Positions 29,490 through 53,115 of a stretch of DNA of 56,320 nt are shown here, in pieces. How positions within the stretch are numbered: position 1 is the stretch's first letter; each line of letters starts with the position of its first letter. Source of the DNA: Candidatus Eisenbacteria bacterium (lineage in GTDB: Bacteria > Orphanbacterota > Orphanbacteria > Orphanbacterales > Orphanbacteraceae); assembly GCA_016930695.1 (NCBI GenBank), contig JAFGGD010000030.1, forward strand, positions 1-56,320, given 5' to 3'. The translations under genes were made by a program, and so were the position numbers. The notes under the pieces were generated by a model. It was not told the origin of the DNA. It did no database searches and saw nothing but the letters and a program-made list of their open reading frames with translations.

Positions 29490-31266
<1,777 letters not shown>

Positions 31267-35063: not shown

Positions 35064-35120
35064 CCCCGGCGATTGTGCCGGCCGGACCTTCATGGTATTT
35101 TGATCGGGAGGAATGTAGGT

Positions 35121-36479
35121 ATGCTGACCCTGATTCGAGACACGGAGACGATCGCCCTCCTCGATCCGGAGCGCCGGGAGATCCGCGGCGGGTGGGTGCT
35201 GGTCGGCGGCGGAACCATCGTCGCGGTCGGTGAACCGGGGCGGGAGCCTTCGGAGGGAATCGACCGGATCGTCCGGGCGGAGGGGATGGTGCTCCTCCCC
35301 GGGCTGGTCAACACCCACCACCACCTGTATCAGACTCTCACCCGCGCCTATCCGGGGGCGACGGACGTGGAGCTCTTCGACTGGCTACGCGCCCTCTACC
35401 CGGTCTGGGCGCGAATCGACCGGACGGGGATTCAAGCGGCCGCGCGCTGTGGGATCGCCGAACTCCTTTTGTCCGGCTGCACGACCACGTCGGACCACCA
35501 TTACCTTTTCGGTCCCGCCTGCCCGGACCCGATCGACGCCACAGTCGAGGCGGCGGCGGAGTTGGGGATCCGTTTTCACGCCACCCGCGGAAGCATGAGC
35601 CTCTCCGAAAAAGACGGGGGCCTGCCGCCGGACCGCGTGGTGCAGCGGGCGGACCGCATCCTCGAGGACAGTCGCCGGATCGTGGAGCGCTATCACGACC
35701 CCAGACCGGGCGCGATGCTCCGGATCGCCCTCGCCCCCTGCTCCCCCTTCTCCGTCGACCGAGAGCTGATGATCGAGACGGCGCGACTCGCCGAGGCGTT
35801 GGACGTCCGCCTGCACACCCATCTGGCGGAGACGAAGGACGAGGAGCGATACTGTCTGGAACGGCACGGCATGCGCCCTCTCGACCTTCTCGAGGAGCTG
35901 GAATGGCTCGGCGACCGGACCTGGATCGTCCACGGCATCCATTTCAACACGGAGGAGATCGCGCGCCTCGGCAAGGCGCGCTGCGGAATCACTCACTGTC
36001 CCTCCTCCAACATGCGCCTCGGTTCCGGCATCGCCCCCACCCTCGATCTGGTCGCCGCCGGGTGCCCCTACGGCATCGGCGTGGATGGTTCGGCGAGCAA
36101 CGATTCCTCGTCGCTGATCGGCGAAGTCCGGCAGGCGCTCCTTCTCGGACGGATCCGCTACGGTCCGGCGAGGCTCGTCGCCGACGAGGTCCTCCGATGG
36201 GCGACTCGTGGGGGCGCGGCCGTGCTCGGCAGGGACGACATCGGCCGGATCGCTCCGGGCATGCGGGCGGATCTGGCGCTCTTCTCTCTCGACGCGCTCC
36301 CCTTCAGCGGCGCGGGAGACCCGATCGCCGCGCTCCCTCTCTGCGGGGCGTCGCGTGTGCACACGCTCTTCGTGGAGGGACGCATCGTGGTGGAGGATGG
36401 ACGGCTCCTCACCGGCGACGAGAGGACGATCATCCGGGACCATCGGGAGGCGGCCCGCCGCATTCGGGAAAACGATTGA
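35121..36479 (+). CDS. 8-oxoguanine deaminase-like amidohydrolase
   Basis: Metal-dependent deaminase of the amidohydrolase superfamily, closest by eye to 8-oxoguanine deaminase (8-oxoguanine to urate) and the atrazine-chlorohydrolase group. The 452-residue protein has VNTHHHLYQTLTRAYPGATDVELFDWL, CGIAELLLSGCTTTSDHHYLF, the metal/catalytic HTHLAETKDEE, VHGIHFNTEE and GVDGSASNDSS. The ATG at 35121 follows GGGAGGAATG. Cytosolic. First of four plus-strand genes with ssnA and ygeW, which supports a purine-base role. Related guanine- or isocytosine-type deaminases cannot be excluded. Confidence 0.82.
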   Translation: MLTLIRDTETIALLDPERREIRGGWVLVGGGTIVAVGEPGREPSEGIDRIVRAEGMVLLPGLVNTHHHLYQTLTRAYPGATDVELFDWLRALYPVWARIDRTGIQAAARCGIAELLLSGCTTTSDHHYLFGPACPDPIDATVEAAAELGIRFHATRGSMSLSEKDGGLPPDRVVQRADRILEDSRRIVERYHDPRPGAMLRIALAPCSPFSVDRELMIETARLAEALDVRLHTHLAETKDEERYCLERHGMRPLDLLEELEWLGDRTWIVHGIHFNTEEIARLGKARCGITHCPSSNMRLGSGIAPTLDLVAAGCPYGIGVDGSASNDSSSLIGEVRQALLLGRIRYGPARLVADEVLRWATRGGAAVLGRDDIGRIAPGMRADLALFSLDALPFSGAGDPIAALPLCGASRVHTLFVEGRIVVEDGRLLTGDERTIIRDHREAARRIREND

Positions 36480-36517
36480 AAGGGCGACGCTCGGGCGCCG
36501 CGCCGCGAGGATAGGGA

Positions 36518-37852
36518 ATGAAAGCGATCCGGCTGATCGGAGACACGGTGATCTCCCCGGGAGGGGAGACCCGCGTTTTTCGCCCCGGCGCGGTTCTCGC
36601 GGAAGGGGGGAGGATCGTCCGAGTCGGCCCGCCCGAGGATGTGCCGGAGAATGGCGCGGAGACGATCGACGCCTCCGGGTGCGCCGTCCTCCCCGGCCTC
36701 ACGATCGCCCACACTCATCTGTACAGCGTTCTCGCCCGCGGGATGCCGGCCGCCGGCGCGCCGCCCGACTCCTTCCGGAGGATCCTGGAGCGCGTCTGGT
36801 GGCGATGGGACAAGCTGCTCGACGCGCCTTCGATCGCCGCCTCCGCCCGGGCGGGGCTTCTGGAAGCGCTTCACCACGGCGTCACCTGCGTGGTGGACCA
36901 TCACGCCTCCCCTTCCGCCGTGGAAGGTTCGCTGGACGTCATCGCCGGCGCCGCCCTCGAGGTGGGCGCCCGTGTCGCCCTCGCCTATGAGGTTTCCGAC
37001 CGGGACGGAGAGGAAACGCGGGACACCGGCCTCCGCGAGAACCTCGCCTTCGCCTCGCGCGCCGGCCGGGAGCGTTCCCCCTTGCTCGCCGCGATGATCG
37101 GCGCCCACGCATCCTTCACACTCGGCGACCGCACCCTCGATCTTCTGCGGGACGCGACGGAGAGGAGCGGTCGCCCGATCCACATGCACCTGGACGAAGG
37201 CCCCGAAGACGGCGAGGCGGCGCGCGCCGCGGGGGACCGGAGCACCCTGGCGCGGCTCGATCGTTTCGGCCTCGTCCGTCCCGGCGCCCTCTTCGCCCAC
37301 GGCGTCCACCTGGACGGCGAGGACCGGGAGCTTCTGGCGCGCCGGAACGCCTTCCTGGTTCACAACCCGCTCTCCAACGGCGGAAACGCGGTGGGACGCG
37401 CCGACGTCCCCGCACTCCTCGCCGCCGGCGCGACGGTCTGCCTCGGCACGGACGGGATGAGCGGCGACCTCGCCGGAGAGGCGGCCGCCGCCGGCTCCGT
37501 TCATCGCATGACGACGGGGGACCGTTCGATCCCCTTCGACCTCGCCTACCGGCTCGCCTGGGAGGGAAACGTCCGCCTCGCCGCCTCCCTCTTCGACCCC
37601 GCGCCGGGGAGGCTCGAACCGGGCGCGGCGGCCGACATGGTCGTGATACGCTACGATCCGCCCACGCCGATCACCCCGGAGAACGCCGCGGCGCACTGGC
37701 TCCTCGGAATCTGCCACGCGCCGGTGGAGGCCGTCTTCGTCGCGGGGGAGAGGGTGATCGAAAAGGGCCGGGCGGTCCGCGTCGACGAGGCGGCGGTTCT
37801 CGCGGAGGCGCGCGACCACGCGCGAACGCTCTGGAAACGATTTACGGCTTAA
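36518..37852 (+). CDS. ssnA: SsnA-type aminohydrolase
   Basis: Second amidohydrolase of the cluster, 444 residues. The SsnA branch is marked by IAHTHLYSVLARGMP, FRRILERVWWRWDKLLD, GVTCVVDHHASPSAVEGSLDVIA and ALAYEVSDRDGEETRD. Metal residues continue in HMHLDEGPED, FAHGVHLD and LGTDGMSGD. In enterobacteria and gut anaerobes ssnA lies with ygeW, ygeX, ygeY, ygfK and hyuA in a locus tied to anaerobic purine/urate breakdown. Here it lies between an 8-oxoguanine deaminase-like gene and ygeW. The substrate is not biochemically settled. Confidence 0.88.
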   Translation: MKAIRLIGDTVISPGGETRVFRPGAVLAEGGRIVRVGPPEDVPENGAETIDASGCAVLPGLTIAHTHLYSVLARGMPAAGAPPDSFRRILERVWWRWDKLLDAPSIAASARAGLLEALHHGVTCVVDHHASPSAVEGSLDVIAGAALEVGARVALAYEVSDRDGEETRDTGLRENLAFASRAGRERSPLLAAMIGAHASFTLGDRTLDLLRDATERSGRPIHMHLDEGPEDGEAARAAGDRSTLARLDRFGLVRPGALFAHGVHLDGEDRELLARRNAFLVHNPLSNGGNAVGRADVPALLAAGATVCLGTDGMSGDLAGEAAAAGSVHRMTTGDRSIPFDLAYRLAWEGNVRLAASLFDPAPGRLEPGAAADMVVIRYDPPTPITPENAAAHWLLGICHAPVEAVFVAGERVIEKGRAVRVDEAAVLAEARDHARTLWKRFTA

Positions 37853-37914
37853 ACGACAAACCGGCCGCGGGTCTTGTCCCGCGTGATACACAAACGAGAG
37901 AAGGATCAAGGAAA

Positions 37915-38910
37915 ATGACGGAGCAGATCACGAAGGCCCTGAAGGGGCGCGACTACATCGAGACGAGCGATTGGTCGGTGAAGGAAATCGAAACCGCCCT
38001 CGACCTGTCGGCGGACCTGAAGAAGAAATTCCGCGGAGGCGTGCCCCATCGCCTTCTGCCGGACAAAACCATCTTCCTCTTCTTCTTCGACAAATCGACG
38101 CGCACGCGCAATTCCTTCGAGGCGGGGATCACCCAGCTGGGCGGCCACGGCCACTTCATCGACGCCGAGACGAGCCAGATCTCCCATGGCGAGAGCGCCA
38201 AGGACACGGGGATCATCCTCTCCCGCTACGGGCACGGCATCGCGATCCGCCACGATCTGGTGCCGGGGGAAGGGAACGCCTATATGCGGGAGGTGGCGAA
38301 GCACGCCGACCGTCCGGTGATCAACATGCAGTGCGACGTGGACCACCCCTGCCAGACGCTGGCGGACCTGATGACCATACGGGAACGCTTCGGAACGAAC
38401 CTGAAGGGGATGAAGATCGCCGTCTCCTGGGCCTACGCCCCCTCCTACGCCAAGCCGATGTCCGTTCCCCAGGGGCTGATCATGCTGATGACCCGCTTCG
38501 GCATGGACGTCACGCTCGCCCATCCGCCGGAGTTCACGCTCATGCCCCATACCGTGGAGCGGGCGCGCAAGAACGCCGCCGAATCGGGAGGCGCCTTCCG
38601 GATCGTCGACACCATGGACGAGGCGTTCGAGGGCGCCCACGTGGTCTACCCGAAGAGCTGGGGCTGCGCCTCCCTCTTCGGCGAGCCGAAGCGCTCCCTG
38701 GAGTTGGCGCGTAATTACACCGATTGGATCTGCGACGAACGCCGCATGGGGCTTGCGAAGAAAGACTCGATCTACATGCACTGTCTTCCCGCCGATCGGG
38801 GGCACGAGGTGACCGATCCGGTCATCGACGGACCTCACTCGGTGGTGTACGACGAGGCGGAGAACCGCCTTCACACCTGCAAGGCGCTGATGGCGCTCAC
38901 CATGGAGTAG
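37915..38910 (+). CDS. ygeW: YgeW-type knotted carbamoyltransferase
   Basis: Aspartate/ornithine carbamoyltransferase superfamily, YgeW branch. The carbamoyl-phosphate motif is FDKSTRTRNSFEAG. HPCQTLADLMTIRE and MHCLPADRGHEVTD complete the active site. The long match to YgeW is clear in GNAYMREV, WAYAPSYAKPMSVPQGLIMLMTRFGMDVTLAHP and VVYPKSWG. It lacks the ornithine signature loop and the aspartate-specific one; the accepted amine is unknown. Family members act in purine-ring catabolism, releasing carbamoyl phosphate from a ureido compound. 331 residues; next gene starts 7 bp after. Confidence 0.88.
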   Translation: MTEQITKALKGRDYIETSDWSVKEIETALDLSADLKKKFRGGVPHRLLPDKTIFLFFFDKSTRTRNSFEAGITQLGGHGHFIDAETSQISHGESAKDTGIILSRYGHGIAIRHDLVPGEGNAYMREVAKHADRPVINMQCDVDHPCQTLADLMTIRERFGTNLKGMKIAVSWAYAPSYAKPMSVPQGLIMLMTRFGMDVTLAHPPEFTLMPHTVERARKNAAESGGAFRIVDTMDEAFEGAHVVYPKSWGCASLFGEPKRSLELARNYTDWICDERRMGLAKKDSIYMHCLPADRGHEVTDPVIDGPHSVVYDEAENRLHTCKALMALTME

Positions 38911-38917
38911 AGAACCG

Positions 38918-40156
38918 ATGCCGGCGCCCCCCCCGAACGTCACCGGGTTCGCCTGCCTCGCCTGCGGGCGGGAAGAGCCTTCCGGCGCGGGCCGTTTCAC
39001 CTGTCCGTCCTGCGGGGGCAACCTGGACGCCCTTTATGATTACGTCGCCGCCTCCGCCGCCATGGACAGGGAAAGGATCGCCGCGTCGAGGGACCGCTCC
39101 TTCGCGCGGTGGGCGCCCCTTCTTCCCCTCGCGGAGGAGAGCCTTCCTCTGACGACGCCGGTGGGAGGGACGCCCCTCCTCCGCGCGGAACGTCTCGGCC
39201 GCTCCCTCGGGCTGGAGAATCTCTTCCTGAAAGACGACACCGCCGAGCCGACCGCCTCCTTCAAGGACAGGGCGAGCGTCGTGGCGCTTCTCCGCGCCCG
39301 CGAAACAGGAGCGGACACGGTGGCGGTCGCCTCCACGGGAAACGCCGCCTCCTCGACCGCGGGGATCGCCGCCGCCCTCGGCATGCGCGCCGTTCTCTTC
39401 GTCCCCGAGTCGGCGCCGGAGCCGAAGCTCGTCCAGATGCTCCTCTACGGCGCGCGCGTGGTCCGCGTGCGCGGGAGCTACGACGACGCCTTCGACCTGT
39501 GCGGCCGCGCCGCCGAGCGATTCGGCTGGGTCGACCGCTCCACCGGCGTGAATCCTTTCACCGCCGAGGGGAAGAAGACCGCCGCCTTCGAGATCGCCCT
39601 CGACGGGGGACGACGCGCGCCGGATTGGGTGCTCGTCCCCACGGGGGACGGCAACATCCTCGGCGCCACCGGGAAAGGCTTTCGGGAGATGCGCGCCCTC
39701 GATTGGATCGATCGCCTCCCCCGGATGGTGGCGGTGCAGGCGGAAGGGTCGTCCGCGATCGTCCGGGCCTTCCGAGAAGGGAAGAAGGAGGCGGAAGAGG
39801 GGCCGGCCGACACGATCGCCGATTCGATCCGGGTGGGCCGCCCCCGCGATTCGGTCCGCGCTCTCCACGCGCTCTACGACTCGGACGGCCTCGGTGTCTC
39901 CGTGACGGACGACAGGATTCTCGCGGCGGCTGCTCGTCTCGCCCGCGAGACCGGCGTCTTCGCGGAGCCCTCGGCGGCGGCGGGGCTCGCCGGACTGGAG
40001 AGGATGGTCGAGGAAAACCGTGTAAAGCCCCAAGATCACGTGGTTTTAGTGATCACCGGCCATGGACTGAAAGACCCGCGCACCCTTTCCTCGGGCATCG
40101 AAGTCCCCGCCGCGATCGATCCCACCCTCGAGGCGGTGGAGGAGGAGATCGGCTGA
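38918..40156 (+). CDS. Threonine synthase-like PLP enzyme
   Basis: Fold type II PLP enzyme, 412 residues. An N-terminal zinc-ribbon-like part has CLACGREEPSGAGRFTCPSCGGNLD. The PLP Lys is in TASFKDRAS, the substrate/phosphate loop in VASTGNAASSTAG, and PTGDGNILG binds the cofactor phosphate. By sequence it would be threonine synthase (thrC). By place, directly after ygeW, it occupies the slot held in other genomes by YgeX, a PLP diaminopropionate ammonia-lyase, so a lyase of the purine-derived amino acid is an alternative. It ends the four-gene run. Confidence 0.8.
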   Translation: MPAPPPNVTGFACLACGREEPSGAGRFTCPSCGGNLDALYDYVAASAAMDRERIAASRDRSFARWAPLLPLAEESLPLTTPVGGTPLLRAERLGRSLGLENLFLKDDTAEPTASFKDRASVVALLRARETGADTVAVASTGNAASSTAGIAAALGMRAVLFVPESAPEPKLVQMLLYGARVVRVRGSYDDAFDLCGRAAERFGWVDRSTGVNPFTAEGKKTAAFEIALDGGRRAPDWVLVPTGDGNILGATGKGFREMRALDWIDRLPRMVAVQAEGSSAIVRAFREGKKEAEEGPADTIADSIRVGRPRDSVRALHALYDSDGLGVSVTDDRILAAAARLARETGVFAEPSAAAGLAGLERMVEENRVKPQDHVVLVITGHGLKDPRTLSSGIEVPAAIDPTLEAVEEEIG

Positions 40157-44171: not shown

Positions 44172-45491
44172 ATGGGCATGGTGGAAAGCATCGAGAAGAA
44201 GAAACGGGGGGGAGCGCTCGACCGCGCGGAGATCCACTCCTGGATCCGCGGCGTCACCGACGGATCGGTACCGGATTATCAGAGCTCCGCGCTCCTGATG
44301 GCGATCTGGTTTCGCGGCTTGGACCGAGAGGAGACCATCGCCCTCACCGAAGAGATGATCCACTCCGGGGACGTGCTCGACCTCGGCTCGGTGCGCGGCG
44401 TCACCGCCGACAAGCACTCCACCGGCGGCGTGGGGGACAAGCTCTCCTTCATCATCGGCCCCCTGGCGGCCGCCTCCGGCGTGCCGGTGCCGATGCTTTC
44501 GGGGCGCGCCCTCGGCCATACCGGCGGCACGCTGGACAAGCTGGAGAGCATCCCCGGTTACCAAACCCGCCTCTCCACGGAGCGTTTCATCGAGATCGTG
44601 CGGGACGTCGGGCTTTCCATCGTCGGGCAGACCGAGCGCCTCGCGCCCGCGGACGGCAAGCTCTACTCGCTCCGCGACGTGACCGGCACGGTGGACGCGA
44701 TCCCCCTCATCGTCTCCAGCATCCTCTCCAAGAAGCACGCCGCAGGACCTCACGCGCTCGTTTTCGACGTCAAGTGCGGAGACGGAGCGATCCTCCGCAC
44801 CCGCGAGGATTCCCGCCGCCTGGCGGAACTGCTGGTGGATGTCTCCTCCCGCCTCGGCAAACCCTCCACGGCGATCCTCACCGAGATGGACGTTCCCCTC
44901 GGGCGGACCGTCGGGAACGCCTTGGAGATCGCCGAATCGATCGAGTCCTTGCGGGGGGAGGGGGCGCCGGATATGATGGAGATCAGCCGGGCCCTCGCCG
45001 CGGAGATGCTTCTCCTGACCGGCGTCGCCGGCGGCGAGGAGGAAGCGCTCGCTCGTATCGACCGGGTGCACCGGAGCGGCGAAGCGCTCCGCGTCTTCCA
45101 GCGGATGATCGAGGCGCACGGCGGCGACGCCAAGGTGGTGGACGACACAACCCGGCTCCCGAAGGCGGCCCACGCCCGTGAGGTGGCGGCCCCCGCCGCG
45201 GGCTTCGTGGCGGCGCTCCCCGCGAGGGCGATCGGCCTCGCGGCGATGCGACTCGGCGCGGGCCGGGAGACGGTGGAGGATCCGGTGAGCCCGGGCGCCG
45301 GAATCGAACTCATCAAGAAGCCGGGGGACCGGGTCGCCAAAGGAGAGCCCCTGGCCCGCCTGCACGCGGACCGGGAGGACCGGATCATCGAGGTGATCCC
45401 CCGGGTGCTCGATGCGTACCGGATCGCCGAGGAGCCGCCGGCGGAAAGACCCCGAATCCTGGAGAGGATCCGTTCGGATCGAGGAGGATGA
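44172..45491 (+). CDS. Pyrimidine-nucleoside/thymidine phosphorylase
   Basis: Splits thymidine, deoxyuridine or uridine with phosphate to base and (deoxy)ribose-1-phosphate. The 439-residue protein is a standard family 3 glycosyltransferase-like phosphorylase: DYQSSALLMAIWFRGLDREE, the phosphate signature DKHSTGGVGDKLSF, SGRALGHTGGTLDKLESIPGY, and SSILSKKHAAGPHALVFDVKCGDGAI. Whether it prefers thymidine (deoA) or also uridine (pdp) is unclear; 439 residues fit both. It heads an operon with HPRT and deoC, so the sugar would flow to DeoC after a mutase step. No phosphopentomutase gene is in the window. Confidence 0.93.
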   Translation: MGMVESIEKKKRGGALDRAEIHSWIRGVTDGSVPDYQSSALLMAIWFRGLDREETIALTEEMIHSGDVLDLGSVRGVTADKHSTGGVGDKLSFIIGPLAAASGVPVPMLSGRALGHTGGTLDKLESIPGYQTRLSTERFIEIVRDVGLSIVGQTERLAPADGKLYSLRDVTGTVDAIPLIVSSILSKKHAAGPHALVFDVKCGDGAILRTREDSRRLAELLVDVSSRLGKPSTAILTEMDVPLGRTVGNALEIAESIESLRGEGAPDMMEISRALAAEMLLLTGVAGGEEEALARIDRVHRSGEALRVFQRMIEAHGGDAKVVDDTTRLPKAAHAREVAAPAAGFVAALPARAIGLAAMRLGAGRETVEDPVSPGAGIELIKKPGDRVAKGEPLARLHADREDRIIEVIPRVLDAYRIAEEPPAERPRILERIRSDRGG

Positions 45492-45497
45492 GCGCCG

Positions 45498-46064
45498 ATG
45501 ATCGGGGAGGGAGTGCGCATTCCGGCCGACGGTGATGTGGAAGTCTATATCGGCGAGGAGAAGATCCGGGAACGGGTCGCCGAGATGGGCGAAAGGATCA
45601 CCCGCGATTATCAGGGGAAAGACCTCTTCGTGGTCGCCGTCCTCCGGGGCGCCATATTTTTCGCCGTCGATCTGGTCCGCCACATCGATCTCCCCTTGGT
45701 GCTCGATTTCGTTCAGATCTCCAGCTACGGCGACGGCACCGAATCGGACGGCCGCGCCAAGATCACCCGCGAGCTGGACCTCTCGATCAAGGATAAGGAC
45801 GTGCTGGTCGTGGAGGACATCGCCGACACGCGGCATACCCTCTTCAACCTGCTCAGCTTCCTCAGCTCCAAATTCCCCCGCAGCATCCGCATCTGCACGC
45901 TGCTGGACAAACGGGAAAGGATGGAGCGAGACATCCCCCTCGATTACGTGGGCTTCACCATCGAAAACAAGTTCGTGATCGGCTACGGCCTGGATTACGC
46001 CCAGCGCTATCGGAATCTCCCCTACGTGGGGATCCTGCGCCAGGGGGGGGAGGTGCTGAAGTGA
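45498..46064 (+). CDS. Hypoxanthine phosphoribosyltransferase-like
   Basis: Type I phosphoribosyltransferase, closest to hypoxanthine/guanine PRTs: [18 protein letters not shown], the flexible loop [19 protein letters not shown] loop [16 protein letters not shown], and the base end [25 protein letters not shown]. It salvages hypoxanthine or guanine to IMP or GMP with PRPP. One oddity: the PRPP loop has DTRHT where the family has DTGxT. 188 residues. It starts 6 bp after the phosphorylase and overlaps deoC (GTGA). Confidence 0.9.
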
Positions 46065-46933
46065 GCGACGACCCCCGCGTGGACCGGATCGTCGAGGAAG
46101 TCCTCGCCCGGCTCGTCCGCAAGGAGGAGTCGGAGAAGAACCTGGACGGCAACTCCTGCGTCACCTGCGCCACGCCGGGACAGTGCGCGTCGGTTTGCCC
46201 GGAGACGACGCGAACGGTGTTTCAGGCGGGCGTGGACCGTCTCTCCAACCGGGGAAGCGCGAACGGCGTACCGGCGGATTTGGCCCGAGCCATCGATCAC
46301 ACCGTCCTCAAGGCGACGATCACCCGGAAGGATATCGACGCCCTTCTGGCGGAGGCGAAGGCGCACCGTTTCGCCTCGGTCTGCGTCAACCCGTGCTGGG
46401 TGCCCGTCTGCCGGGACGCCCTCCGCGGGACCGACGTGCTGGTCTGCACGGTGATCGGCTTCCCCCTCGGGGCGAACTCGCCGGAGACGAAAGCATTCGA
46501 AGCGCGCCGCGCCTGTTACGAGGGCGCCCAGGAAGTGGACATGGTCCTCAACGTCGGCGCCCTAAAAGGGGGGGATCTGAAACTGGTGGAGCAAGACATC
46601 CGCGGCGTGGTCGAATCGGTCGGACCCCGGGTCGTGGTGAAGGTGATTCTGGAGACCGCCTACCTCACCCGGGAAGAGAAGATCCAGGCCTGTCGGGCGG
46701 CGATGAGCGCCCGGGCCCACTTCGTGAAAACCTCCACCGGTTTCGGGCCCTCCGGAGCGACGGCGGAGGACGTGCGGTTAATGCGGGAGACGGTCGGCCC
46801 CGGCATGGGCGTCAAGGCCTCCGGGGGGATCCGCACCCGCGACGACGCGGAGGAGATGCTCCGCGCCGGCGCATCCCGGATCGGGGCGAGCGCCTCGGTG
46901 GCAATCGTTCAAGGCGAGGAGAATGATGCGTAA
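46061..46933 (+). CDS. deoC: Deoxyribose-phosphate aldolase with microcompartment-type N-terminal extension
   Basis: Cleaves 2-deoxyribose-5-phosphate to glyceraldehyde-3-phosphate and acetaldehyde. The DERA catalytic residues are Asp160 ([12 protein letters not shown]), Schiff-base Lys223 (FVKTSTGF) and Lys254 ([10 protein letters not shown]). About 70 residues precede the domain. Residues 6-20 ([15 protein letters not shown]) form an amphipathic helix like encapsulation peptides of microcompartment cargo. A CX2CX5CX3C motif (Cys33, 36, 42, 46) follows, then a linker to [13 protein letters not shown]. Acetaldehyde is a typical substrate kept in such shells. Start is GTG overlapping the HPRT stop. 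Length 290 against about 220-260 for plain DeoC. Confidence 0.94.
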
Positions 46934-47339
46934 ACATTACTGGGCGGCGGCGCTCGTGCTGGCGGCGCTTTTCGCGGCGGCCTGCCAAGATGAAAACGTG
47001 ATCCCCCGGCCGGAGAGTTTCACCGGCCTATGGTCCATCGAGGCCTTCGCGGCGCAGACCTTGATCTTCGAATGGGAGCAGGACGGGTCCGATCTCCGCG
47101 GGGACATGTACCTGGAGACCTTCACCGGCACCCAGGGTCCCTTCCCGCTCTACGAGGGACGGGTGAGCGGCGAGACCGTCACCTGGTCGATCCGTCGCGC
47201 CGAACTGGGAGGGACCGATTCCCTCTACTTCCGGGGGGATCTGGACACGCCCAACGTGATTCGCGCGCATTTGACCATCTGCACGGACACCACCATCGTC
47301 TATCCGGTGACGGTGGTTCGCGACGCCTCCGGCTTCTAG
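46923..47339 (+). CDS. Small lipoprotein inside the nucleoside operon
   Basis: A 138-residue lipoprotein: signal peptide, lipobox FAAAC, then [12 protein letters not shown]. The mature part has alternating strands ([54 protein letters not shown] in parts) and looks like a small beta barrel of lipocalin-like make-up. The start is ATGATG at 46923, overlapping the deoC end by 11 bp. No family recognised. Its place between cytosolic catabolic genes hints at a role in capturing a nucleoside or product, but that is inference. Confidence 0.75.
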
Positions 47340-47348
47340 GAGATCCCG

Positions 47349-48419
47349 ATGAACCGGGAATCGGCGGGAACCGGCAAGGGACCGTCCGGTACGGTGATCT
47401 GCACCGGCATCAGCCGGACCGAGAAAGCCCCCTTCCTGCGTGAACTCGCGGAACACGGCTGGGGACGCGGCGCCCCCGTGGAAGTCCATGACGTGGGGAA
47501 CATGCTCCTCCGCAAGGCGGAGATCCTCGGCATCCCCTACCGGGACGAGAAGATCCTCGACGCCCCGGAAGTGACGCTCAAGACCCTCCGCGCCGCCGTG
47601 TTCGAGGAAATCCTCAAGAACAGGCGCGAGGAGAGGCTGAGCCTGGTCTCCCTGCACGCCTGCTTTCGCTGGAACGGCACGCTCCTCTCCGGTTTCGATC
47701 CGTATTACCTGCACCTTCTCAAACCGTATCTCTTCCTCACCCTGGTGGACGATCTGGAGAAGATCGAGGCGAGGATGGCGGAGAGCGTGCAGTGGAAGGG
47801 GAGGCTTACCCGCACGGAAATCGTGGATTGGCAAAACACGGAGACCTTCGTCACCCAAACCATGTCCGCCTTCATGAACCGGCCCTTCTACATGGTGCCG
47901 AAGGCGCAGCCCGTCGAATCGATCTGGAGTCTCCTGGATCGTCCCGACGGGCCGAAGGCCTACCTCTCGTACCCGATCAGCGCGCTGTACAAGAAGGGGA
48001 GCGGCGTGGAGCCGGAGACCTTCTTCGAGGAGGTGCGCGCCTTCAAGACGTTCGCCGAGGAGTTCCTGACGGTCTTCGATCCGATGAGCATCAAGGATCT
48101 GGACATGGACCCGGCGAAAGCGGGCACCCCCGAGGCGGAGCTTTTGAAACGGGTCACGGTCTGGAGGGACTTCACTTTTATCAATCAGTGCGACTTCCTG
48201 ATCGTCTACAACCCCCTCGGCCTCGACTCGCCCGGCGTGAACGACGAGGTTTATCACGGCTTCTCGAACAACAAGGACGTGTACGTCTACTACGCGAGCA
48301 AGTCCCGCTCTCCCTTCCTGGAGAGCAAGACCACCCGCATCTTCTCCGACCTGGAGGAGATGAAGGGCTTTCTCCGCGAACGCTACGGCGCGCCTCCGGG
48401 CGAGGGCGCCCGGCCGTGA
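47349..48419 (+). CDS. Two-domain protein: degenerate adenylate kinase-like plus deoxyribosyltransferase-like
   Basis: Unrecognised as a whole; 356 residues. Residues 15-150 resemble an AdkA-type nucleotide kinase (TVICTGISRTEKAPFLREL, VHDVGNMLL, LVSLHACFRWNGTLLSGF, LTLVDDLEKIEARM). The P-loop is degenerate: GISRTEKA (20-27) lacks the GK[ST] end. Residues about 203-350 look like the nucleoside 2-deoxyribosyltransferase fold: AYLSYPISALYKKG, FINQCDFLIVYNP, then SPGVNDEVYHGFSNNKDVYVYY with Glu300 at the catalytic position. A nucleoside- or nucleotide-handling role fits the operon. Confidence 0.65.
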   Translation: MNRESAGTGKGPSGTVICTGISRTEKAPFLRELAEHGWGRGAPVEVHDVGNMLLRKAEILGIPYRDEKILDAPEVTLKTLRAAVFEEILKNRREERLSLVSLHACFRWNGTLLSGFDPYYLHLLKPYLFLTLVDDLEKIEARMAESVQWKGRLTRTEIVDWQNTETFVTQTMSAFMNRPFYMVPKAQPVESIWSLLDRPDGPKAYLSYPISALYKKGSGVEPETFFEEVRAFKTFAEEFLTVFDPMSIKDLDMDPAKAGTPEAELLKRVTVWRDFTFINQCDFLIVYNPLGLDSPGVNDEVYHGFSNNKDVYVYYASKSRSPFLESKTTRIFSDLEEMKGFLRERYGAPPGEGARP

Positions 48420-49210
48420 CCCCTTCTCCCTTCCTCGCGCGTCTCCCGTCGGACCGGCCCGCCCTCATCGGAGTGATCCACCTGGAGCCGCTCCCCGGAG
48501 CGCCCCGCGTCCGCCTTCCGTTGGAGGAGACGATCCGCCTCGCCGTCCGGGACGGTCACGCCTGGCGGGAGGGGGGCGCCGACGCGGTGCTGGTGGAGAA
48601 CTTCGGCGACGACCCCTTTCACCCCGGCCCGGTTCCGCCGGAAACGATCGCCTGCGTGACCGCGGCCGCGCGCGCCGTGGGCGAGGCGACCCGCCTCCCT
48701 CTCGGCGTGAATGTTCTCCGGAACGACGGCGAGGCGGCTCTCGCGGCGGCGATCGCGGCGGGAGGCTCCTTCGTTCGCGTGAACGTGCTCACGCACGCCT
48801 ACCTGACCGACCAGGGGACGGTGGAGGGGATCGCCCACCGCCTTCTCCGGATGCGCCGCTCCCTCGGGGCGGAGACGGCGATTCTTGCCGACCTGCTGGT
48901 GAAACACGCCGTCCCCCTCGCCCCGATCGATCCGGAGGACGCCTACCGTGACCTGGTGGAACGCGGCGGGGCGGACGGGGTGATCGTCACCGGCAGGGCG
49001 ACGGGCGCCCCCGCGGACCCCGCCTTCGCGGCGCGGATCGCCTCGCTCGGCGGCGCGCCCCTCTTCGTCGGGAGCGGGATCACGCCGGAGAGCGCGGCCT
49101 CCTTCGCTTCTTCGGTCCGGGGCTTTCTCGTCGGGAGTTGGGTGAAGCGGGATGGGAGAGTGGACGCCTCTCGGGTTCGGACGCTCGCCGAGGCGATCGG
49201 CGCCGCCTAG
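48416..49210 (+). CDS. BtpA/SgcQ family TIM-barrel protein
   Basis: 264-residue (beta/alpha)8-type protein of the BtpA family: LIGVIHLEPLPGAPR at the N-terminus, GADAVLVENFGDDPF, LPLGVNVLRNDGEAALAAA, FVRVNVLTHAYLTDQG and DGVIVTGRATGAPAD, GSGITPESA. The starting GTG overlaps the previous stop (GTGA), so it is translationally coupled. Members are often with sugar-phosphate (sgc) or nucleoside genes, and no reaction is firmly assigned; a phosphate-binding C-terminal GSGI loop suggests a phosphorylated sugar or base ligand. The stop overlaps the convergent udk end. Confidence 0.85.
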   Translation: MTPSPFLARLPSDRPALIGVIHLEPLPGAPRVRLPLEETIRLAVRDGHAWREGGADAVLVENFGDDPFHPGPVPPETIACVTAAARAVGEATRLPLGVNVLRNDGEAALAAAIAAGGSFVRVNVLTHAYLTDQGTVEGIAHRLLRMRRSLGAETAILADLLVKHAVPLAPIDPEDAYRDLVERGGADGVIVTGRATGAPADPAFAARIASLGGAPLFVGSGITPESAASFASSVRGFLVGSWVKRDGRVDASRVRTLAEAIGAA

Positions 49211-52395: not shown

Positions 52396-53115
52396 ATGGG
52401 AAAGGACGCGTTCGAGATTGTCGCGCTCGTCGCCCGCCCGGCGGCCGGCAAGTCGGAGGTGATCGATTATCTGAAGAAAGTCGGCGAAACCGAGCGCCGC
52501 GAGCGCTTCCACGTCGGCTCATTCGAGGAGCTGGACGATTTTCCGATCATCTGGCGGTGGTTTCAGGAAGACGACGTGCTCACCCGGATGGGCCGTGAGC
52601 GGAACTGGACCGACGAACGGTACTACTTCAGAAATCCGGACGACTGGAACGTGCTGATCGAAATGATGAGCGCGATCTGGGAGGAGAAACTCGCCGCCGA
52701 TCCGAAGCTGCCGGACCGCACCACCACCATCGTCGAGTTCGCCCGCGGCGGCCCGAACGCGTTTCGGGAGGCGTTCTCCCATCTGAGCGAGAACATGCTC
52801 CGGCGGATGGCCGTGCTCTACATCGATGTCTCCTACGAGGAGTCCTGCCGCAAGAACCGGCGGCGCGCCCGCCCGGGACTGGAGGGTTCGATCCTCCATC
52901 ACTCCCTGCCGGACGACAAGATGGAGTTCTATTACAAAGAGAACGATTGGCGGGAGATGGCGCCGGACGGGGAGGGATGGTTCGAGGCGAAGGGGATCCG
53001 CGTCCCTTACGTCGTTCTCCCCAACGAGCCGGAGGTGACCGACGACCCGGCCAAGCTCGGTCCCGCGCTGGAGAAGGCCTTCGGTGCGCTCTGGAGGATC
53101 CGCTCCGGCGGCTGA
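52396..53115 (+). CDS. Uncharacterised P-loop NTPase, probable kinase
   Basis: A 239-residue protein with a good Walker A (LVARPAAGKSEVIDYL, residues 11-26, GKS at 18-20). A Trp- and charge-rich middle follows (WRWFQEDDVLTRMGRERNWTD), then TTIVEFARGGPNAFREAFSHL and a Walker-B-like VLYIDVSYEESCRKNRRRARPG, where Arg-rich sequence could be a lid. I know no named family. It resembles small nucleoside/nucleotide kinases in outline. It follows ada by 39 bp with a GAGGAGAG site, so a phosphotransfer role on a nucleoside is inferred. Confidence 0.65.
   Translation: MGKDAFEIVALVARPAAGKSEVIDYLKKVGETERRERFHVGSFEELDDFPIIWRWFQEDDVLTRMGRERNWTDERYYFRNPDDWNVLIEMMSAIWEEKLAADPKLPDRTTTIVEFARGGPNAFREAFSHLSENMLRRMAVLYIDVSYEESCRKNRRRARPGLEGSILHHSLPDDKMEFYYKENDWREMAPDGEGWFEAKGIRVPYVVLPNEPEVTDDPAKLGPALEKAFGALWRIRSGG

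Follow-up and report, generated by a model that had tools for sequence, protein, structure and literature searches.

The gene at 47349-48419 of the window, by which we mean the whole 56,320-nucleotide stretch of Candidatus Eisenbacteria DNA analysed, encodes an AdkA-like kinase domain joined to a domain of the deoxyribosyltransferase (NDT) fold. The fusion is a real, old family, apparently undescribed, and we consider it somewhat probable (roughly 0.55) that it is a DNPH1-like (deoxy)nucleoside 5'-monophosphate N-glycosidase carrying an AdkA-derived pseudo-kinase half; substrate and activity are predicted from folds, conserved residues and gene neighbourhoods. The gene and its two halves are located as follows:

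47349..48419, + strand: whole fusion gene, AdkA-like pseudo-kinase plus DNPH1/NDT-fold domain (356 aa, ATG start)
47385..47951, + strand: N-terminal AdkA-fold domain, residues 13-201 (profile 6ln3, Foldseek 6pjw, Pfam AAA_17)
47949..48416, + strand: C-terminal NDT/DNPH1-fold domain, residues 201-356 (Foldseek, PF05014, hhalign)

With regard to the reading frame, AGGAG is observed just 5' of the ATG, and the stop codon overlaps the GTG start of the downstream BtpA-family gene. A chance ORF or a frame artefact is ruled out by the conservation of the full length across phyla. The antisense frames opposite the gene, considered as a competing gene, are long but typical of GC-rich DNA, and the forward reading is preferred because the forward protein is the one conserved across phyla. 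A scan for promoters and terminators around the gene was uninformative. The first-pass annotation had described this ORF as a fusion of kinase-like and deoxyribosyltransferase-like halves, which we confirm at these coordinates: neither a C-terminal fold unlike that of the deoxyribosyltransferases nor variation at Glu300 was found when both were checked.

All six genomes of the phylum with a completeness of at least 90% contain the full-length fusion, and the copies exhibit 66-75% identity. It was found at 34 genome-contig loci in bacteria (Eisenbacteria, Chloroflexota, Caldisericota and one Clostridia bin) and archaea (Brockarchaeota, Bathyarchaeota, Thermofilum and other Thermoproteota). The hosts are mostly heat-loving archaea, chiefly Thermoproteota, and nearly every sampled close relative of Thermofilum carries the gene. 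A second, strongly diverged archaeal clade comprises 16 sequences. The phylogenetic tree places the window copy beside those of Eisenbacteria, and long branches separate them from every other sequence. Residue conservation was counted on an alignment of 53 fusion members from Eisenbacteria, Chloroflexota, Caldisericota and many archaea; short matches confined to the first 150 positions represent ordinary AdkA and were left out of the counts. Twelve columns are invariant in these 53 members, namely L70 and W161 and, in the C-terminal domain, ten others (Y205, L206, S207, P209, F243, P245, D274, G296, E300 and F323). No description of an AdkA-like/NDT-fold fusion was found in a literature search of open-licence papers. 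Since defining features of both AdkA and NDT were looked for and found lacking, the fusion was assigned to neither.

For the C-terminal half, Foldseek matched the predicted structure to the NDT 7o62 (TM 0.76) and also to MilB 4jem, so that the deoxyribosyltransferase fold proposed in the first-pass annotation is borne out by structure prediction and fold search. The Pfam NDT family PF05014 was detected in 27 of 32 fusion members (best E 4.7e-6), the window copy itself being unmatched. With hhalign, the domain aligned to a DNPH1-like set (E 5.7e-6) and to an NDT set (E 1.9e-5), with moderate probabilities (78-86%) and no clean separation between the two. The residues predicted to be catalytic are:

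47961..47963, + strand: Y205, counterpart of the DNPH1 catalytic Tyr24 (53/53, alignment)
48168..48170, + strand: D274, counterpart of the DNPH1 catalytic acid Asp80 (53/53)
48246..48248, + strand: E300, predicted nucleophile, equivalent to Glu104 in DNPH1 and Glu103 in MilB (53/53)

The catalytic triad of DNPH1 comprises Tyr24, Asp80 and Glu104 (PMC10603095), and all three residues align with residues that are present in all 53 aligned members, including the Glu300 singled out earlier for a conservation check. The fusion further shares with DNPH1/RCL, the 2'-deoxynucleoside 5'-phosphate N-hydrolase, the fold class and a Gly-Val before the Glu. In contrast, DNPH1 is a stand-alone homodimer of about 150-170 aa that lacks a kinase domain, and its base-recognition and hydrolysis residues, Glu55/His56 and Arg30, appear not to be conserved in the fusion. 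For the Glu55/His56 element, no clear counterpart could be aligned; the nearest conserved segment is F243-D244-P245, in which D244, the nearest conserved acid, is found in 47 of the 53 members.

The setting of the gene is that of a nucleoside operon, as had been proposed, with PyNP, phosphoribosyltransferase and DeoC genes upstream:

44172..45491, + strand: pyrimidine nucleoside phosphorylase (PyNP) of the fusion operon (Pfam Glycos_transf_3 and PYNP_C)
45498..46064, + strand: HPRT-like phosphoribosyltransferase, which could consume the free base (Pfam Pribosyltran)
46061..46933, + strand: deoxyribose-phosphate aldolase DeoC, which could consume deoxyribose 5-phosphate (Pfam DeoC)
46923..47339, + strand: small putative lipoprotein between DeoC and the fusion, synteny kept (no Pfam match)
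48416..49210, + strand: BtpA-family protein, start overlapping the fusion stop (Pfam BtpA, E=1.7e-68)

DeoC is thus encoded two genes upstream of the fusion, and genes for thymidine kinase, RpiB, adenosine deaminase and PNP follow downstream of the fusion and BtpA. A second genus of the phylum keeps the order PyNP-HPRT-DeoC-lipoprotein-fusion-BtpA. Thymidylate kinase directly precedes the fusion gene in two Chloroflexota genomes, and at one Bathyarchaeota locus pyrB/pyrI is located about 1 kb upstream. At most archaeal loci, no nucleoside or nucleotide genes were found adjoining the fusion. The co-occurrence of DeoC was tried as a test of function and rejected as uninformative, since PF01791, present in 24 of 26 fusion hosts, is nearly as common in control genomes (13/14). 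The only conserved neighbour to emerge in archaea is a small glutaredoxin-like gene, divergently oriented and located upstream at a distance of about 0.4 kb at 11 loci (L015, L017, L020, L022, L023, L028, L029, L030, L032, L040 and L041); it gives no functional lead.

Differences from NDTs that bear on the substrate class are observed at two serines of the predicted phosphate site:

48228..48230, + strand: S294, six residues before E300, counterpart of the phosphate-binding Ser98 of DNPH1 and Ser97 of MilB (alignment)
48309..48311, + strand: S321 of the SPFL motif, aligned with Ser128' of DNPH1 and with the Asn of the NDT motif NPMI (alignment, hhalign)

DNPH1 binds the phosphate through S98 and S128', the latter contributed by the adjacent subunit (PMC10603095), and MilB possesses the phosphate ligand S97 as well as E103 (PMC4081090). 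Position 294 is a serine in 48 of the 53 fusion members and a histidine in the other five, which belong to one archaeal clade, whereas the NDT sequences examined (our own set and PDB sequences) have an aspartate six residues before the Glu. Position 321, the equivalence of which rests on alignment, is a serine in 47/53 members, where NDTs have the Asn of NPM. As regards the sugar, the F17Y substitution switches the preference of MilB from CMP to dCMP (PMC4081090), and all 53 members exhibit a tyrosine, Y205, at the position of Phe17, which fits a deoxy sugar. The fusion has in common with MilB and the CMP N-glycosidases the counterparts of Ser97 and Glu103 and an S-P-G motif, as in 4jen. It differs from MilB, which also lacks a kinase domain, in having Tyr, Ile and Ser/Thr in place of Phe17, Phe22 and Arg23; the MilB motif F-L-(G/A)-(G/A)-P-F, with Phe17 and Phe22, reads Y-L-S-Y-P-I in the fusion. 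Based on the serine six residues before the Glu, as in DNPH1 and MilB, on S321 at the position of Ser128' and on Tyr205, we read the fusion as a 5'-monophosphate N-glycosidase, and we infer hydrolysis rather than transfer for its C-terminal domain.

The earlier suggestion of base exchange on nucleosides is not supported as written by these serines. An NDT proper was rejected on the Asp-to-Ser change, and the broader reading of the C-terminal domain as a true NDT or a nucleoside hydrolase, with unphosphorylated (deoxy)nucleosides as substrates, is rather improbable. It would account for PF05014 being the only recurring Pfam family of the domain, for an NDT being its best fold match, and for the nucleoside phosphorylases and kinases of the operon. 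The fusion shares the Glu nucleophile and the Tyr with NDTs. However, the family has SPF in place of NPM and Ser in place of the NDT Asp, and PyNP and PNP are already available in the operon for nucleosides.

The predicted phosphate pocket and the Glu would also suit NMN, and NADases and ADP-ribosyl cyclases are among the members of the DrHyd superfamily (PMC9503650). The substrate of the C-terminal domain could be a different 5'-phosphorylated N-glycoside, for example NMN, NAD+ or a nucleotide that is modified or damaged, in the manner of related TIR/DrHyd/SLOG-clade enzymes. We regard this as unlikely, as Tyr205 fits deoxyribose and the neighbourhoods in Eisenbacteria and Chloroflexota are those of nucleoside and nucleotide metabolism. 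A role as a defence system was rejected: PADLOC gave no match to a defence family, and no relatives were found in viral contigs, which likewise counts against the reading with NMN, NAD+ or modified nucleotides.

Within the TIR-DrHyd-SLOG clade, inactive proteins function as sensors (PMC9503650), and one half of the fusion is already devoid of catalytic residues, so that both halves might simply bind ligands and regulate a partner. Such a non-catalytic nucleotide sensor is very unlikely, since a pure sensor would not be expected to keep the full triad invariant in two clades that have diverged deeply.

The N-domain profile matched archaeal AdkA 6ln3 with E=1.4e-12, and Foldseek aligned the N-domain model to AMP-bound AdkA 6pjw with a TM of 0.85, in agreement with the AdkA-like body described earlier. 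The AlphaFold model of the fusion, computed with 32 sequences, reached a pLDDT of 88.1 and a pTM of 0.86, superseding a run with seven sequences in which the N-domain was weak (pLDDT 73.6). Pfam AAA_17 was seen in all 32 members, at a score below the cut-off in the window copy, and the AdkA model PRK04040 of NCBIfam gave 13.9 bits against a cut-off of 155. The nucleotide-binding motifs are altered at two places:

47406..47429, + strand: degenerate Walker A G-I-S-R-T-E-K-A, residues 20-27 (53-member alignment)
47649..47657, + strand: lost Walker B Asp, S101-L102-H103, equivalent to D-T-H in AdkA (alignments to AdkA)

None of the 53 members exhibits the Walker A Ser/Thr at position 27, and only 10/53 exhibit the Lys at position 26, where Arg or Lys is found in 39/53. 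Main-clade members typically read GISGSGR, with no Ser/Thr in any of them at the next position, and in the diverged archaeal clade the P-loops (GHSGLDKHR, GPTGVNMRE or GTTGLNMKA) are barely recognisable. The GISRTEKA segment had been called a non-working Walker A, and its degeneracy indeed proves to be conserved throughout the family. Just 2/53 members retain the Walker B Asp, while the His of the AdkA DTH motif is kept in 43/53. As the P-loop Lys is likewise missing from the methanococcal AdkAs of the PDB (GVPGVGGTT), loss of the Lys alone is weak evidence for a dead kinase; the case for a pseudo-kinase rests on the joint loss of the Walker A Ser/Thr (53/53) and the Walker B Asp (51/53). A working phosphotransferase with a non-standard P-loop, which would make the protein bifunctional and for which the Arg/Lys at the Walker A Lys position and the methanococcal AdkAs could be invoked, is highly improbable given these two losses and the barely recognisable P-loop of one archaeal clade. 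One fusion-bearing Brockarchaeota genome encodes a separate, intact AdkA with GVSGVGKST and DTH, so the fusion is not the adenylate kinase of that host; a search of the window's own genome with the N-domain profile detected no second AdkA-like gene. The fusion also differs from AdkA in the FRW motif of its main clade and in the attached glycosidase domain. It resembles the Zobellia HGPRT/adenylate kinase (PMC7326950) in that a base-salvage enzyme is fused to an adenylate kinase, but the Zobellia protein was characterised as bifunctional and has a different salvage domain. A regulatory role is inferred for the N-terminal half, for which a function as a putative nucleotide sensor is plausible.

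Under the DNPH1-like reading, Glu300 would attack C1' of a nucleoside 5'-monophosphate while Asp274 would protonate the leaving base. Tyr205 would complete the triad and disfavour a 2'-OH, and Ser294 and Ser321, the latter possibly from a partner subunit, would hold the 5'-phosphate. Water would then free deoxyribose 5-phosphate and the base, which could pass to the DeoC and the phosphoribosyltransferase of the operon, respectively. The N-terminal half would descend from an archaeal adenylate kinase, having lost phosphoryl-transfer chemistry, and would now most likely be a nucleotide-binding or oligomerising regulatory domain. More tentatively, the family may represent an ancient class of deoxynucleotide N-glycosidases, found in Thermoproteota and a few bacteria, in which the retired AdkA domain reads adenine nucleotide levels.

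On this more tentative view, Eisenbacteria would be able to convert deoxynucleotides directly to deoxyribose 5-phosphate, without the nucleotidase, phosphorylase and mutase steps, and the enzyme might feed a DeoC-linked microcompartment. To our knowledge, few nucleotide-level N-glycosidases have been identified (DNPH1, MilB/BlsM), and the fusion would add one attached to a retired kinase that perhaps also controls it. It would provide a concrete case of a metabolic kinase turned regulatory domain. A protein that nearly all sampled close relatives of Thermofilum retain, apparently with no described function, would also become testable.

Microcompartments of the SPU type are defined by a DeoC-like aldolase and RpiB, and their presumed function is DNA catabolism (PMC4207490, PMC8156839). 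On the same contig, about 40 kb downstream of the fusion and outside the window (C30:87000-90900, L123), a microcompartment locus with genes for BMC-H, BMC-T, EutN, an aldehyde dehydrogenase and a class II aldolase is observed, and BMC genes are present in 7/7 genomes of the taxonomic family. DeoC (46061-46933) is extended at its N-terminus by about 70 residues, which include an amphipathic stretch and a Cys-rich motif. The stretch resembles one on the BMC aldehyde dehydrogenase, with weak helical-moment statistics, and the extension is possibly a microcompartment targeting peptide. We treat the tie between the fusion operon and the microcompartment as a lead only. The window also encodes, at 29490-30113 on the minus strand, a 207-aa protein whose C-terminal part carries a single BMC domain, and in several relatives similar single-BMC-domain matches are found at 15-26 kb from the fusion.

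Two further observations concern the same window. Adjoining adenosine deaminase, with synteny kept in another genus, 52396-53115 encodes a 239-aa protein with a P-loop-like start (VARPAAGKSEVIDYL) and no Pfam, PADLOC or PDB match. At 35073-40156, successive genes encode two amidohydrolases, one carbamoyltransferase and one PLP enzyme, an arrangement like that of a purine/ureide degradation cluster.
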